Positions 1,575 to 43,124 of a stretch of 64,000 nucleotides of DNA are shown here, piece after piece; within the stretch, counting starts at the first letter, position 1, and each line of letters starts with the position of its first letter. Source of the DNA: Paraburkholderia ginsengiterrae. Its GTDB lineage: Bacteria > Pseudomonadota > Gammaproteobacteria > Burkholderiales > Burkholderiaceae. The notes beneath the pieces are model-generated. The model was not told the origin of the DNA. It searched no databases and saw only the letters and a program-made list of their open reading frames with translations. Where the stretch lies: assembly GCF_001645125.1 (NCBI RefSeq), contig NZ_LXKA01000110.1:372001-436000 (forward strand), read 5' to 3'. The position numbers were made by a program, and so were the translations under genes.

Positions 1575-1934
1575 TTATTCCCCGATGGCGTGAGCCGCGT
1601 TGTCCAGTTCCTGGTTCAGCACGCGCTGTTCGTCGCCGGACAGGCCGCCGCCGTGTTGCGCGGCCATGTCGTGCGCTTCCTGGCGGATCACGTCGAGGCG
1701 ATGATGCAGCGCACCGCCTTGCGGGGGCGGGTAATAGCCCTGATTCACGCGATTGTCGATACGGCGCCCGAGATTGTCGATGCGGCCGTCGACCTGAAAG
1801 AGACGCTGCTGCGCGATCTGCTGCGGGTTAGGGCGCGGCGCCGGTGCTGGTGCGGGTTGAGTCGGCGCCACCACGCAGGCGGCGAGTGAGCTGAGCAGGG
1901 CGCATGCGGCTAGCGCGCGGATGGTACGGGGCAT
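1575..1934 (-). CDS. Small putative lipoprotein of unknown function
   Basis: This gene encodes 119 residues. An N-terminal hydrophobic segment (RALAACALLSSLAAC) ends in the lipobox LAAC, so it should be processed by signal peptidase II and anchored by lipidated cysteine. A Pro/Ala-rich stretch (APTQPAPAPAPRPNP) follows, then a charged helical region (QQRLFQVDGRIDNLGRRIDN) and a C-terminal helix rich in D, E, Q and H. I chose the ATG at 1934 because GGAG lies five bases upstream; a GTG two codons earlier is possible. A strong terminator follows, so the gene is probably monocistronic. I do not recognise a family with a known job. Confidence 0.75.
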   Translation of the reverse strand: MPRTIRALAACALLSSLAACVVAPTQPAPAPAPRPNPQQIAQQRLFQVDGRIDNLGRRIDNRVNQGYYPPPQGGALHHRLDVIRQEAHDMAAQHGGGLSGDEQRVLNQELDNAAHAIGE

Positions 1935-2132
1935 GGACACTCCGGAAGTCGTTGTCGTTTTGTGGTGCTACTCGGGTAGCAACGGATGATGGCGTGATCG
2001 CGCTGACCGGGGGCGCGGCCTTATTTGTAACGTTATGTTCCTTTCGTCCATGTCAGGTTTGAGGCCGGCGCGGCGTTGCCAGCAAGTGGACTTTTTTGGT
2101 ACACAAGCCGTTGCGCCGCGCGGGCCAAACCC

Positions 2133-3182
2133 TCAGCGAATGCGTTCGAACGGCAGCCGGACGCCTTCTTCCGAACTCCGGGCGGCGAGTTCGATAATTG
2201 TCATTACGTCGACGGCGTCCTGTGCGCTGACCGGGAATTTCACGCCGTTCTGGATCGCATCGGCCACCGCAATATAAAAGCCCACGTAGTCCCCGTTGCG
2301 CGTTGGAAGTTCGCGCTCGACTTCCTGATCGCCTTCGAGCACGCGCACCAGACCCGCGGCATTACCGGCGCCGAAGCCTTCATCGCCCGGCCGCAGGCCT
2401 GCCTTCAGCTGATCTTCCTGCGTGTCGAGCCCATTTTTCACGTAGCTTCCGCGTGTACCGTGGATCGTGAAGCGGGGCGCGACCAGCGCGGTCAGCGCGC
2501 TCGCGTGCAAGACCACCTCGAACTCGCCGTAGCCGAGCTGAATATGGACGTAGTCCGGCGCGCTGGCCTCGTCGCGATGCGTGCGCACCGTCGCCGACAC
2601 GGTCTGCGGGGCACCGAACAAGGCCAGCGCCTGGTCGACCAGGTGCGGCCCGAGGTCCAGCAGCAAGCCGCCGCCGCGTGACGCTTCCTCGCGCCAACGC
2701 TGCCGCACTTCCGGCCGGAAACGGTCGAAATGCGATTCGTATTGCGTGATACGGCCCAACTGTCCGCTTGCGAGCAGTTCGCGCACGGTCAGAAAGTCAC
2801 CGTCCCAGCGGCGGTTGTGAAACGGCATGAAAAGCTTGCCGCGGGCGAGCGCGATGTTGGCGAGCGTGTGGGCGTCGGCGGCGTTCAGCGTGACCGGCTT
2901 GTCGACCACCACGTGCTTGCCGGCTTCCAGCGTGCGGCGCGCCAGGTCGAAGTGCGTGTCGTTGGGCGTGGCGATCACGATGCACTCGATTTCATCCAGC
3001 GCGAGCAGCGCGTCGAGATCGGCCACGACCTTGGTATGCGGATAGTCGGCGAGCGCGCGCTCGGGCTGACTCGTGGCGACGGCCGCGACGCTCGCGCGGC
3101 CGCAGTGCTCGATCACCGGCGCATGAAAAGTCGCGCCGGCAAAACCGTAACCCATCAATCCAATCTTCAGCGATGCGGACAT
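2133..3182 (-). CDS. Gfo/Idh/MocA-family NAD(P)-dependent oxidoreductase (YdgJ-like)
   Basis: This 349-residue cytoplasmic oxidoreductase has an N-terminal Rossmann fold beginning KIGLMGYGFAGATFHAPVI, a glycine-rich dinucleotide loop. The family DKP signature appears in HVVVDKPVTL, whose lysine is part of the active site. A C-terminal substrate and dimerisation domain starts near GRITQYESHFDRFRPEVR. The DRFRP and GGGLLLDLGPHLVDQAL elements resemble E. coli YdgJ. The family oxidises or reduces sugar or polyol substrates, but the substrate here cannot be read from sequence. The gene is divergent from rep, with a 400-base intergenic region. Confidence 0.9.
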   Translation of the reverse strand: MSASLKIGLMGYGFAGATFHAPVIEHCGRASVAAVATSQPERALADYPHTKVVADLDALLALDEIECIVIATPNDTHFDLARRTLEAGKHVVVDKPVTLNAADAHTLANIALARGKLFMPFHNRRWDGDFLTVRELLASGQLGRITQYESHFDRFRPEVRQRWREEASRGGGLLLDLGPHLVDQALALFGAPQTVSATVRTHRDEASAPDYVHIQLGYGEFEVVLHASALTALVAPRFTIHGTRGSYVKNGLDTQEDQLKAGLRPGDEGFGAGNAAGLVRVLEGDQEVERELPTRNGDYVGFYIAVADAIQNGVKFPVSAQDAVDVMTIIELAARSSEEGVRLPFERIR

Positions 3183-40164: not shown

Positions 40165-40875
40165 GTGAATCTGCCGACCAATGCGCCTGGCGCCGAAGCG
40201 GTCAACGAGAGCGGCGACTTTGCGTCTGACCGCATTCTCGCCCGCATTGGACAACTCACGCGCACGCTGCGCGACTCGATGCGCGAGCTCGGGATCGACA
40301 AGCATGTCGAGCGCGCGGCGGAAGCCGTGCCCGATGCACGCGATCGTCTGAAATACATCGCGAACATGACCGAGCAGGCCGCCGAGCGCGTCCTGTCCGC
40401 GATCGACATCGCCAAGCCGATCCAGGAGCAGTTGCAGAAAGACGCGGGTGAGCTCGACGCGCGCTGGGAGCAATGGTATGCGGCGCCGATCGAACGCGAG
40501 GAAGTGCGCGCGCTGATGAACGACACGCGGACCTTCTTGCGCGGCGTGCCCGAGGCGACCGGCGCGACCAACTCGCAGCTCATGGAGATCATGCTGGCGC
40601 AGGACTTCCAGGATCTGACCGGCCAGGTCATCAAGAAGATCACCGACGTCGTGTACCTGATCGAGCAGCAGTTGCTCGGCGTGCTGGTGGAGAACATCGC
40701 GCTCGAGCGGCGCGAACAGTTCGCCGCGAACGCGGCGGCGCTGGCGGCGGAAGTCTCGTCGACCGGCAGCCCCGAGCATCTGCTGAACGGCCCGCAGATC
40801 AATCCGGAAGGGAAGGCGGACGTGGTCCAGGACCAGTCGCAGGTCGACGACCTGCTGGCGAGCCTCGGCTTCTGA
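40165..40875 (+). CDS. cheZ: CheY-P phosphatase CheZ
   Basis: The 236-residue product is a long helical hairpin with the catalytic motif LAQDFQDLTGQVIKKI (the Gln and Asp act on CheY-P) and the C-terminal CheY-docking segment VDDLLASLGF. The start is GTG at 40165, one base after the cheY stop. It closes the mot/che operon. Confidence 0.97.
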   Translation: MNLPTNAPGAEAVNESGDFASDRILARIGQLTRTLRDSMRELGIDKHVERAAEAVPDARDRLKYIANMTEQAAERVLSAIDIAKPIQEQLQKDAGELDARWEQWYAAPIEREEVRALMNDTRTFLRGVPEATGATNSQLMEIMLAQDFQDLTGQVIKKITDVVYLIEQQLLGVLVENIALERREQFAANAAALAAEVSSTGSPEHLLNGPQINPEGKADVVQDQSQVDDLLASLGF

Positions 40876-41137: not shown

Positions 41138-41683
41138 ATGTGGAGTTGTATTCGTCGCGCCGGGATCATTACGGCGCTTGCTTTGCCTTGTTCGTTTTTT
41201 GCGGTGCAGTCCGCCAACGCGGCACTGGGCGGTGCCCCAATGACGCCTTCCGGGGACGCATCGGTCTCGTCCCGCACCGTCCAGCCGGGCAGCGGCGCCG
41301 CCAACGCCGCGCAAGGCGTGATGCGCTCCGCCTCCAACGCCGCCTCCGCCACTTCGGCTACAGCCTCGTACACCGTGCGTGAGACCAAGCTCGGCAACGG
41401 CACCGTGGTTCGCGAGTACCTTGCCGCCGACGGTTCCGTATTCGGCATTGCGTGGCGCGGTCCGCAAATGCCGGATCTGAGCGATCTGCTCGGCACCTAT
41501 TTCCCGCAATACGTGGCCGGCGTGAATGCGGTCCGCGCGGCGCGCGGCGGCGGCCATGGTCCCGTTGCGGTCGAGCAGAGCAGCCTCGTGGTGCGTTCCG
41601 GCGGCCACATGGGCGCGTTCAACGGCCAGGCCTGGCTGCCCGCGGCGCTGCCCGCGGGCGTCAGCGGTTCCGACATCCAGTAA
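41138..41683 (+). CDS. Exported DUF2844-type protein
   Basis: The 181-residue product has a Sec signal peptide (GIITALALPCSFFAVQSANA) and a mature part starting ALGGAPMTPSGD. A conserved-looking core, YTVRETKLGNGTVVREYLAA and FGIAWRGPQMPDLSDLLGTYF, is followed by VVRSGGHMGAFNGQAWLPAA. I recognise the pattern of the DUF2844 family, whose role is unknown. GGGAGGAA lies eight bases before the ATG. The next gene starts 17 bases downstream, so the two proteins are probably made together and meet outside the cytoplasm. Confidence 0.85.
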   Translation: MWSCIRRAGIITALALPCSFFAVQSANAALGGAPMTPSGDASVSSRTVQPGSGAANAAQGVMRSASNAASATSATASYTVRETKLGNGTVVREYLAADGSVFGIAWRGPQMPDLSDLLGTYFPQYVAGVNAVRAARGGGHGPVAVEQSSLVVRSGGHMGAFNGQAWLPAALPAGVSGSDIQ

Positions 41684-41700
41684 CGGCGAGGACGAGAACG

Positions 41701-43002
41701 ATGCGAACCATGCATAGCGCTGTAAAGCTCAAGGACTGGATGCGGGCGGTCGTGGCCGTGATGCTGGTGTCGGTGCTCGCCGCTTGCGGCGGTGGGGGCG
41801 GCTCCAGTTCCAGCAACAATTCGTCGACCACGCTGAACGGCGGCTCGCTGCCGGCGAGCCCGACCCAGCAGCCGATTGCGGCCGGCGCCGCGAACACGGC
41901 GGTGATCACGGTCGGGCAGGGGTTGAGCGGCGTCGTCAATATTCCGACGGTCAGCGTCACCATCTGCCAGCCCGGTTCGACCGCGAATTGTCAGACCATT
42001 AACAATATTCAGGTCGATACCGGTTCGTTCGGATTGCGGGTGGTTGCCTCGGCGCTGAACCCAACGATGGCGCAGGTGTTGCAGCCGATCCAGTTGAACG
42101 GCGGGCAACTTGCCGAATGCGCAACCTTCGCCGACGGCTACACGTGGGGTACGGTGCGTAGCGCAAGCGTCGGGATTGGCGGCGAAACGGCCACCAATAT
42201 TCCGATCCAGGTCATCGGCGACAAGCCTCAGAGCACGGTGCCGGCAACCGGCTGCAGTGGCACGGCGCAAAACACGGCCAGCCAGCTCGGTGCCAACGGC
42301 ATTCTCGGCATCGGCACGGCGCCTACCGATTGCGGTGCGACTTGTTCCGATCCGGCGACGGCCGGTACGTACAGCAATTACTTCGGCTGCCCGGGTACCG
42401 TAAATTGCACCCGGACGGCGGTGCCAACCGCTCAGCAGGTGACCAATCCGGTCTCGAAGTTTACAGGCGACAACAACGGCGTAATCGTGCAGATGCCACC
42501 ATTGCCGGATACGGGGGCGCCGTCGGCCACCGGCACGCTGGTGTTCGGTATCAACACGCAGTCGAACAATACACTGACCGGCGTGCAGACCTATACGACC
42601 GACGCCTTCGGCGACATGAACGACAGCGTTTTCAACGGCACAACGGTGCAGGCGTTCCTCGATTCGGGCTCGAACGCGTACTTCTTCGCCGATAACTCAA
42701 TCGCGCAGTGCGGAGGCAATTTAGGGAGCTTCTATTGCCCGCCGTCGGCGCAAACCCGCTCGGTGACGCTGGTCGGGCTGAACAAGGCCACCACGAGCGC
42801 CAGCATCGGCATCCTGACCGCGCAGACGCTGTTTGGCGGCGGCAGCAACTTCGCGTTCAACGACCTGGCCGGTCAGATCGGCGGCAACAGCAGCTTCGAT
42901 CTCGGCCTGCCGTTCTTCTACGGCCGCCACATCTACTACGGCATCGATCAGACCCAGAACGGCGCGAACCCCGGCGGCCAGGCACCTTTCGTCGCCTTCT
43001 AA
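41701..43002 (+). CDS. DUF3443-type lipoprotein with pepsin-like aspartic-protease signatures
   Basis: The 433-residue lipoprotein (signal VAVMLVSVLAAC, lipidated Cys29, then Gly/Ser linker) belongs to the DUF3443 type as I recognise it. Two motifs spaced like the lobes of an A1 protease stand out: INNIQVDTGSFGLRV (D106) and VQAFLDSGSNAYFF (D321). Between them are a flap-like segment (FADGYTWGTVRSASVGIGGE) and GANGILGIG (200-205), which resembles the GILGLG element of pepsins. Many cysteines suggest disulfides, consistent with export. I infer a pepsin-like fold; proteolytic activity is not shown. It is in an operon with the DUF2844 gene. Confidence 0.82.
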   Translation: MRTMHSAVKLKDWMRAVVAVMLVSVLAACGGGGGSSSSNNSSTTLNGGSLPASPTQQPIAAGAANTAVITVGQGLSGVVNIPTVSVTICQPGSTANCQTINNIQVDTGSFGLRVVASALNPTMAQVLQPIQLNGGQLAECATFADGYTWGTVRSASVGIGGETATNIPIQVIGDKPQSTVPATGCSGTAQNTASQLGANGILGIGTAPTDCGATCSDPATAGTYSNYFGCPGTVNCTRTAVPTAQQVTNPVSKFTGDNNGVIVQMPPLPDTGAPSATGTLVFGINTQSNNTLTGVQTYTTDAFGDMNDSVFNGTTVQAFLDSGSNAYFFADNSIAQCGGNLGSFYCPPSAQTRSVTLVGLNKATTSASIGILTAQTLFGGGSNFAFNDLAGQIGGNSSFDLGLPFFYGRHIYYGIDQTQNGANPGGQAPFVAF

Positions 43003-43073: not shown

Positions 43074-43124
43074 CCTTTCTCCGCCCTTATCCGCCGATCA
43101 GCGCTTGCGTCGAGCGGGAATAAT
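43074..43124 (+). promoter_or_regulatory. Candidate FlhDC-dependent class II promoter of flhBA
   Basis: CCTTT-N2-CCG-N1-C-N1-TTATCC-N2-CGATC, followed 19-20 bases later by the -10-like AATAAT (43119-43124), is shared with the flhF upstream region at identical spacing. A related element lies before flgB. Confidence 0.6.

Follow-up and report, generated by a model that had tools for sequence, protein, structure and literature searches.

What do the two genes between cheZ and flhB of Paraburkholderia ginsengiterrae encode? The window, that is, the whole stretch of DNA that was analyzed, comprises 64,000 nucleotides of this genome (RefSeq GCF_001645125.1, contig NZ_LXKA01000110.1, positions 372,001 to 436,000; the genome has 8.53 Mb in 393 contigs). 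The two genes encode a DUF2844 protein and a DUF3443 lipoprotein, and Pfam lists both families (PF11005 and PF11925) as being of unknown function. A whole-word literature search with the two names, which was confined to one paper collection, gave nothing. A preliminary description of this DNA had read the lipoprotein as a pepsin-like aspartic protease that is paired with the DUF2844 protein. The analysis presented here favors, with a probability of roughly 70%, a secreted, lipid-anchored, pepsin-like aspartic peptidase with a dedicated DUF2844 partner that would act in trans.

Both proteins of the window are full-length members of their families. The DUF3443 protein matched PF11925 over residues 63–433 (E 3.6e-129; 431.3 bits versus a curated cut-off of 25), and the DUF2844 protein scored 155.2 bits with PF11005, versus a curated cut-off of 22.4. 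NCBIfam had no match for either of them. The nearest loci in a species-wide scan were from Paraburkholderia, with identities of up to 75%.

Two aspartate motifs are invariant in DUF3443 proteins

Residue conservation was quantified with 160 DUF3443 open reading frames (ORFs). Removal of 46 duplicates and 5 fragments led to a set of 110 sequences, including P0002, of which 37 remained after filtering at 60% identity. Further alignments were A1 (38 of the 77 scan loci and P0002), A2 (37 of 76 and P0001), and A4, which combined P0002, L224, and L225 with 35 of the 36 remaining non-redundant members; the permuted L088 was omitted.

In the window protein, D106 is followed by the segment ADGYTWGTVR, by G200, 94 residues past D106, and by D321 within LDSGSNAYFF. 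D106 was Asp in 36/36 and D321 in 37/37 of the non-redundant members, which share less than 60% identity and whose identity with the window protein falls to about 30%. The sole gap at D106 stems from the rearranged protein L088, the DTGS of which sits at the opposite end. An earlier alignment of 97 sequences had Asp in 94/94 and 96/96, respectively, of the rows with a residue at these positions. The domain has 28 invariant columns out of 371, and of its 15 Asp residues only D106, D210, and D321 never vary. Thr107, Ser109, Arg113, and Gly323 are also invariant in the non-redundant set, and no invariant Glu, His, or Lys was found among the domain columns. The preliminary description had named the loss of D106 or D321 in homologs as the result that would speak against its reading; this objection fails because both residues are invariant across the non-redundant members.

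The first site reads D106-T-G-S, with Gly in 34 and Ala in 2 of 36 members, and the second site reads D321-(S/T)-G-(S/T) in 36/37, with one Ala. The hydrophobic pair of A1 enzymes is incomplete in some members because position 104 varies to Gln or Glu (26 Leu, 8 Gln including the window protein, 1 Ile, and 1 Glu; n = 36). The first hydrophobic-hydrophobic-Gly motif, (I/V/L)201-(L/V/I)202-G203, is intact in 37/37. Two points of the preliminary description needed correction. The residue proposed as the flap Tyr, Y147, is conserved as Tyr in just 17 of the 37 members, with Ser in 13, Phe in 3, and other residues in 4. The two motif Asp are separated by 215 residues, which include a Cys-rich stretch (about residues 210–236), versus the spacing of about 180 residues given there for A1 proteases. 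The conserved aromatic residues of the putative flap are F143 (30 Phe and 7 Tyr) and W149 (35 Trp and 2 Phe), followed by G150 in 37/37. In the Cys-rich stretch, D210 is found in 37/37 members, C211 in 34, C215 in 32, and C230 and C236 in 36 each.

The first lobe is homologous to recognized aspartic-protease domains

Individual DUF3443 members matched two aspartic-protease models below the cut-offs of Pfam. Asp_protease_2 (PF13650) was found with 5/39 members (best E 0.013) and with 7/38 diverse members (best E 0.0049), and gag-asp_proteas with 3/39 and 2/38 members (best E 0.0057, for residues 311–352 of the window protein). No other family recurred in the 38-member scan, and the unrelated Ig_ADGRF3 was found with 2/39 members. 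The curated cut-off of Asp_protease_2 was not reached by any of the 39 and 38 members scanned.

The homology of lobe 1 to recognized aspartic-protease domains is supported by two intermediates. The first is a domain of a 4118-aa open frame (L098), which a DUF3443 scan of 398 genomes also found, under the cut-off. This domain matched Asp_protease_2 over the cut-off (8.8e-9; 36.4 bits versus 24.3; two stretches), and its residues 43–122 matched positions 42–125 of the DUF3443 model under the cut-off (7.4e-5), with DTG in the same register. It also matched PF00026 (0.012, under the cut-off) and, weakly, the model of mycobacterial PE-PGRS aspartyl peptidases, PF20729 (0.019). Comparison of DUF3443 with the family of this giant protein by hhalign gave a probability of 93% and a score of 58.3, and the best of 200 column shuffles reached 24.4. 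The alignment runs from DTG via the flap to GILGIG: F143 lies opposite a Tyr of the giant-protein domain, with W149 six residues further, and NGILGIG is aligned with GADGIIGF. With lobe 1 of DUF3443 alone, the probability was 95.9%, and none of 100 shuffles was as good. Taken together, the lobe-1 homology spans 86–91 columns, with 0 of 100–200 shuffles as good. The giant-protein family, in turn, was linked to a single-lobe retropepsin-type profile (85.6% over 33 columns, 0/200 shuffles) and to two-domain Asp_protease_2 proteins (67%, score 42.6; best of 40 shuffles 19.8). Giant open frames of 3894–4118 aa were observed in four genomes (L226–L230), each with two tandem aspartic-protease-like domains.

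The second intermediate is L263, which matched DUF3443 lobe 1 at 6.1e-5 (under the cut-off) and with 84% in hhalign (0/100 shuffles). Matches were also obtained with the giant-protein family and with the two-domain Asp_protease_2 proteins (0/100 shuffles as good in each case), and a weak one (0.063) with the end region of the TAXi_C model. L263 (positions 1696-2802, minus strand) is a lipoprotein of 368 aa from the same genus; it has DTGT in lobe 1 and, by eye, FATGN at the second site. It is a possible pseudoenzyme, an apparent relative of DUF3443 in which the second catalytic Asp appears to be replaced. The homology of lobe 1, with its DTG, flap, and hydrophobic-hydrophobic-Gly, to a recognized member agrees with a place of DUF3443 in the aspartic-protease superfamily in the broad sense (clan AA).

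For lobe 2, homology is weakly supported. Lobe 2 of DUF3443 scored 23.8 with lobe 2 of bacterial A1 proteins, versus 14.5 with their lobe 1, and the two-domain Asp_protease_2 proteins gave 20.7 versus 12.8. In both comparisons of lobe 2 with lobe 2, 0/100 shuffles were as good, and the hhalign probabilities were 3–7%. A realigned comparison with the bacterial A1 proteins L112/L115 covered 285 columns at a probability of 4%, with a scored core of 13 columns. It paired DTGS with DTGS, GILGIG with GILGLA, GTLVFGI with GFLILGG, FLDSGSNAYFF with MVDSGTNGIYL, and LGLPFF with LGLPLM, and the C-terminal segment was aligned at low confidence with SILGLPLMNNYFTVFD of a bacterial A1 protein. This alignment was taken as consistent with a pepsin-like protein, and not as proof, because of its low probability and its 13-column core.

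The order of motifs (DTG, flap, GILGIG, DSG, GLPFF) recurs in bacterial A1 proteins, albeit in a full-length alignment of low confidence. Of the features expected of peptidase family A1, the two Asp motifs were found, with exceptions; the flap Tyr, the second of the two psi-loops (a term taken from PMC11313796), and a match to the family model were not. DUF3443 appears pepsin-like on the basis of its invariant Asp residues, the lobe-1 homology, and the motif order, and membership in A1 is not supported. The profile comparisons with A1 and retropepsin families that had been suggested gave a link of lobe 1 through intermediates, and no convincing direct one to A1 or to single-lobe retropepsins. 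Among the genomes scanned, PF00026 was found over the cut-off in 4/299 and Asp_protease_2 in 98/150.

Three results were not used. A match of DUF3443 to a ribose-binding protein of the PDB was rejected, as it covers the signal peptide, the linker, and the start of the domain. A profile probability of 99.6% is circular because the bilobal comparison set included L098. A lobe-1 value of 19.6% over 107 columns (A4 versus A3) was set aside because A3 mixes four A1 proteins with L098.

DUF2844 accompanies DUF3443

Genes were counted as a pair when DUF2844 was located upstream within 1.5 kb, measured from domain to domain. This was the case for 108 of the 110 distinct full-length DUF3443 genes, and DUF2844 accompanied DUF3443 in 76 of the 77 scan loci. 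The exceptions among the 110 were L137, with no DUF2844 in the surrounding 18 kb either (L153), and L122; the fragments L006 and L087 also had none. The identical 10 of 398 genomes of the phylum carry both families over the cut-off. The pairing is stronger than the preliminary description could have shown. The two domains were never fused, as none of 164 DUF3443 ORFs also carried a DUF2844 domain.

The distances between DUF3443 proteins and those between their partners had a correlation of 0.948 over the 108 pairs and of 0.926 over 10 paralogous pairs from two genomes; in both cases, none of 2000 permutations was as high. The same nearest neighbor was found in both partner trees for only 43 of the 108 pairs. 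The C-terminus of DUF2844 is nearly fixed, with DIQ at the end of 73 of 109 distinct family ORFs, and the window protein ends with GSDIQ. No credible relative emerged when 38 DUF2844 members were scanned against Pfam, and a profile search of the PDB with DUF2844 gave no useful one.

The genome of P. ginsengiterrae contains five pairs and one fragment, and the pair also occurs in P. xenovorans LB400 (L022). The fragment, a sixth DUF3443 copy on contig 123 (L166:7244-7831, minus strand), is truncated at the N-terminus and has no DUF2844. Two unusual arrangements were also observed: one genome has a tandem of two DUF2844-DUF3443 pairs (L171:6904-11099, plus strand), and in another, a single DUF2844 gene is followed by two DUF3443 genes (L155:3289-6142, minus strand).

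A putative lipid-anchored peptidase with a partner in trans

We propose that the DUF3443 protein is exported and anchored by a lipid at Cys29, probably in the outer membrane, and that disulfides would stabilize it. The domain of about 370 residues would fold into two pepsin-like lobes, with D106 facing D321, and the two Asp would activate a water molecule for peptide-bond cleavage, either in the periplasm or on the surface of the cell. As a dedicated partner, the DUF2844 protein would be co-expressed, separately exported, and bound to the peptidase. We consider it most likely that DUF2844 would control or complete the peptidase in trans, as an inhibitor, a folding helper, or a detached prosegment, rather than being an ordinary substrate. 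If the pair is genuine, the share of a regulator, chaperone, or prosegment is, in our opinion, about two thirds, and that of a substrate about one quarter. The sequences themselves show the invariant Asp motifs, the homology of lobe 1, the export-signal patterns, and the near-constant pairing, from which the fold of lobe 2, catalysis, the membrane, the disulfides, co-expression, binding, and the direction of the control are inferred.

If this is true, a family that is labeled as unknown and occurs in 53 of 120 genomes of the taxonomic family as well as in two further phyla would gain a catalytic function, and the bacterial pepsin-like enzymes would include an exported, lipid-anchored kind with a partner of its own. 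The giant-protein domain and L263 would be intermediates between DUF3443 and retropepsin-like proteins, which bears on the origin of the two-lobed pepsins.

The prosegment variant was proposed because no prosegment in cis is visible between the lipobox and the domain, where the consensus is poorly conserved. The plan of pepsinogen would be split over two genes, with several paired copies per genome, and DUF2844 would occupy or fold the cleft until a signal at the surface frees the lipid-anchored peptidase. We regard this variant as tentative and rather unlikely; it would represent a bacterial secreted zymogen of the pepsin type that acts in trans.

Evidence against the proposal and alternative explanations

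Several observations weigh against a pepsin-like peptidase with its own partner. PF00026 matched none of the 39 and 38 DUF3443 members scanned, among matches listed up to E 10, and a profile search of the PDB with DUF3443 gave no aspartic-protease match. The direct match to A1 rests on 13 columns around DTGS. The comparison of DUF3443 with the single-lobe retropepsin profile was not significant (18/200 shuffles as good; 9/200 with lobe 1 alone and 22/200 with lobe 2 alone), and that with the two-domain Asp_protease_2 proteins was marginal (21.5 versus a best of 20.5 in 60 shuffles). One of 100 shuffles was as good in the comparison of lobe 1 with lobe 1 of the latter proteins, and also in that of lobe 2 with lobe 2 of the giant-protein family. 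L263 did not match the A1 profile (77/100 shuffles as good).

At the level of residues, DTAS replaces DTGS in 17 of the 110 members, and the flap Tyr is mostly Phe in DUF3443. In place of the second hydrophobic-hydrophobic-Gly, most members have D-(W/L)-G, with D400 ahead of G402 in 31/37, and position 113, which we take to correspond to Trp39 of pepsin, is Arg.

The pairing also has its limits. After the addition of four plasmid copies, of which L222 and L223 are paired and L224 and L225 (about 31% identical) are not, DUF2844 was not found near 4 of 114 genes (110/114 paired). Among the 108 paired genes is one whose DUF2844 is also that of its tandem neighbor. The correlation of partner distances was weaker within single genomes (0.828 in P. 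ginsengiterrae, with 62 of 2000 permutations as high, and 0.949 in genome G322, with 21 of 2000), and adjacency alone could yield such a correlation.

The near one-to-one pairing would also be expected if DUF2844 was the substrate, a secreted protein that the anchored peptidase clips for maturation or release, and the nearly fixed C-terminus (DIQ in 73/109) fits this explanation. However, inspection of the DUF2844 alignment by eye did not reveal a conserved linker that resembles a cut site, and joint duplication with each paralog is at least equally expected of an enzyme and its partner. We consider this explanation unlikely.

DUF3443 might also be a protein with a pepsin fold that no longer cuts, i.e., a lipid-anchored protein for binding or adhesion, comparable to the TAXI-type inhibitors, with DUF2844 or something else as its ligand. 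The alterations of the flap Tyr and of the second hydrophobic-hydrophobic-Gly point in this direction, as does that of the presumed Trp39-type position, and the FATGN of L263 in the same genus indicates that loss of the second Asp may occur nearby. Against this, the two Asp as well as Thr107, Ser109, and Gly323 never vary, even in members with only about 30% identity. Non-peptidase homologs of A1 are described as not conserving the active-site Asp (PMC2761423). A non-cutting protein is thus judged to be quite unlikely.

A chance occurrence of DTG and DSG in a different beta-rich fold would explain why no match to A1, to retropepsins, or to aspartic proteases of the PDB exceeded a cut-off, but it is very improbable in view of the lobe-1 homology over 86–91 columns, which none of 100–200 shuffles equaled, and of the second bridging protein L263 (84%, 0/100).

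Comparison with known systems

Pepsin homologs without signal peptides were reported for seven bacterial species (PMC2761423), and shewasin D is described as mainly cytoplasmic (PMC4814920). DUF3443 resembles the bacterial A1 proteins and shewasins in having two D-(T/S)-G motifs and a GILG-type motif in a single chain. In contrast to them, it is a lipoprotein by its sequence, does not match PF00026, lacks a conserved flap Tyr, and has the DUF2844 partner. PecA, a surface-associated mycobacterial PE_PGRS aspartic protease, likewise has DTG (293–295) and DSG (470–472) in one chain (PMC6819658), and the bridging L098 weakly matches PF20729 (0.019). PecA differs in being a PE_PGRS protein linked to type VII secretion, and PF20729 was not matched by any of the 39 and 38 DUF3443 members.

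The two-domain Asp_protease_2 proteins (L202–L207; 328–393 aa) have two PF13650 matches per frame. They share with DUF3443 two DTG-type motifs and GILG/LGM-type segments in one open frame, whereas DUF3443 stays below the PF13650 cut-off and has a Cys-rich insert, a lipobox, and a partner. RloA enzymes are described as retropepsin-like relatives of RimB that have signal peptides and are encoded together with RloB and RloC (PMC12239564), and RapL of Rickettsia as a peptidase that matures surface autotransporters (PMC10414592); the available text of these two sources mentions no DUF2844-like partner.

For the genetic arrangement, there are parallels outside of the aspartic proteases. In the pairs lipase-foldase and staphopain-staphostatin, a secreted enzyme is encoded beside a dedicated helper or inhibitor. 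The folds are unrelated, and the parallel is an analogy only.

Organization of the gene pair

The two-gene layout of the preliminary description was confirmed: a DUF2844 gene precedes, at a distance of 17 bases, the gene for a DUF3443 lipoprotein with D106-TGS and D321-SGS. The features are compiled in the table. A cheZ ORF (end at 40875) lies before the pair and a flhB ORF (start at 43105) after it. A scan for promoters and terminators was uninformative. A signal peptide of the DUF2844 protein was judged by eye, with a cleavage-like ANA preceding ALGG. A loose lipobox pattern was found upstream of the DUF3443 domain in 105 of the 110 distinct full-length members.

Table. Features of the DUF2844-DUF3443 gene pair in the window
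Feature	Position	Strand	Basis
DUF2844 gene, 181 aa	41138..41683	+	Pfam PF11005 E 1.1e-45, translation
Intergenic spacer, 17 bases	41684..41700	.	sequence
DUF3443 lipoprotein of 433 aa, putatively a two-lobed, pepsin-like aspartic peptidase	41701..43002	+	Pfam PF11925, lobe-1 profile homology
Predicted lipoprotein signal peptide, lipobox LAAC, lipid-anchor Cys29 (sequence pattern)	41701..41787	+	
First putative catalytic motif VDTGSFGLR (D106, S109, R113)	42013..42039	+	each residue 36/36 non-redundant
Putative flap C140-R153 with aromatic F143, W149-G150	42118..42159	+	
First psi-loop motif NGILGIG (N199-G205)	42295..42315	+	N199, G200, G203 each 37/37
Invariant D210 and Cys-rich insert (C211, C215, C230, C236)	42328..42408	+	
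Second putative catalytic motif FLDSGSNAYF (D321)	42655..42684	+	D321, G323 each 37/37
C-terminal psi-loop-like segment FDLGLPFFYGRHIYYGI (residues 399-415)	42895..42945	+	G402, G408 each 37/37

Distribution, genomic neighborhood, and unusual members

DUF3443 was found over the cut-off in 10/398 genomes of the phylum and in 53/120 sampled genomes of the taxonomic family. It was also found in 3/149 genomes of the phylum of a locus with an Acidiferrales title and in 7/97 genomes of that of a locus with a Bdellovibrionales title. Relatives were not found in the viral contigs or phages searched.

The position between cheZ and flhB had been taken as a hint at a role in motile cells. At least one of cheB, cheY, cheZ, flhB, and flhA was present in the flanks of 70 of the 77 Burkholderia-type scan loci and of 3 of the 29 loci from paralogs and other genomes, and all three were from the same family. 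The flagellar neighborhood is lineage-bound, and therefore, it says little about motility. That the pair is part of the flagellar or chemotaxis apparatus, as these 70 loci and a Burkholderia glumae plasmid block around the pair might suggest, is the most improbable of the explanations, since such genes are missing in most of the other loci and near four more pairs of P. ginsengiterrae on other contigs (two of these stretches are short), and since one pair, on a plasmid, has an integrase gene on one side and a plasmid replication gene on the other. The B. glumae plasmid has 23 kb, and its chemotaxis-flhB-flhA-flhF block encloses the pair (L222:1-13059).

Clustering of the neighbors (at least three genomes, inspected by eye) revealed no gene that keeps a constant place between distant genomes. 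What recurs looks like ORFs in opposite frames, flagellar synteny shared by close relatives, and members of broad families (response regulators, for example) whose place varies; one synteny among close relatives involves a gene that we take to be of the bamC type.

A divergent DUF3443 subfamily, about 31% identical, is encoded on plasmids of Caballeronia and Burkholderia (L224:4725-6047 and L225:4716-6047, both plus strand). DUF2844 was not found in about 11 kb around these genes, and a gene for a TAXI-TRAP binding protein lies upstream in both cases.

A circular permutation was observed in one DUF3443 protein, which has 431 aa (L120:1243-2535, minus strand, which equals L088:3859-5151, plus strand). 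Model positions 70–364 come first, and positions 2–60 with DTGS come last, and the protein has its own signal peptide and a preceding DUF2844 gene. A second permuted copy was not seen among the 22 other matching genomes of that phylum when the order of segments was inspected by eye. The source is a low-coverage metagenome bin, and the permutation is possibly an assembly artifact. The adjacent termini that the permutation implies would fit a pepsin fold.

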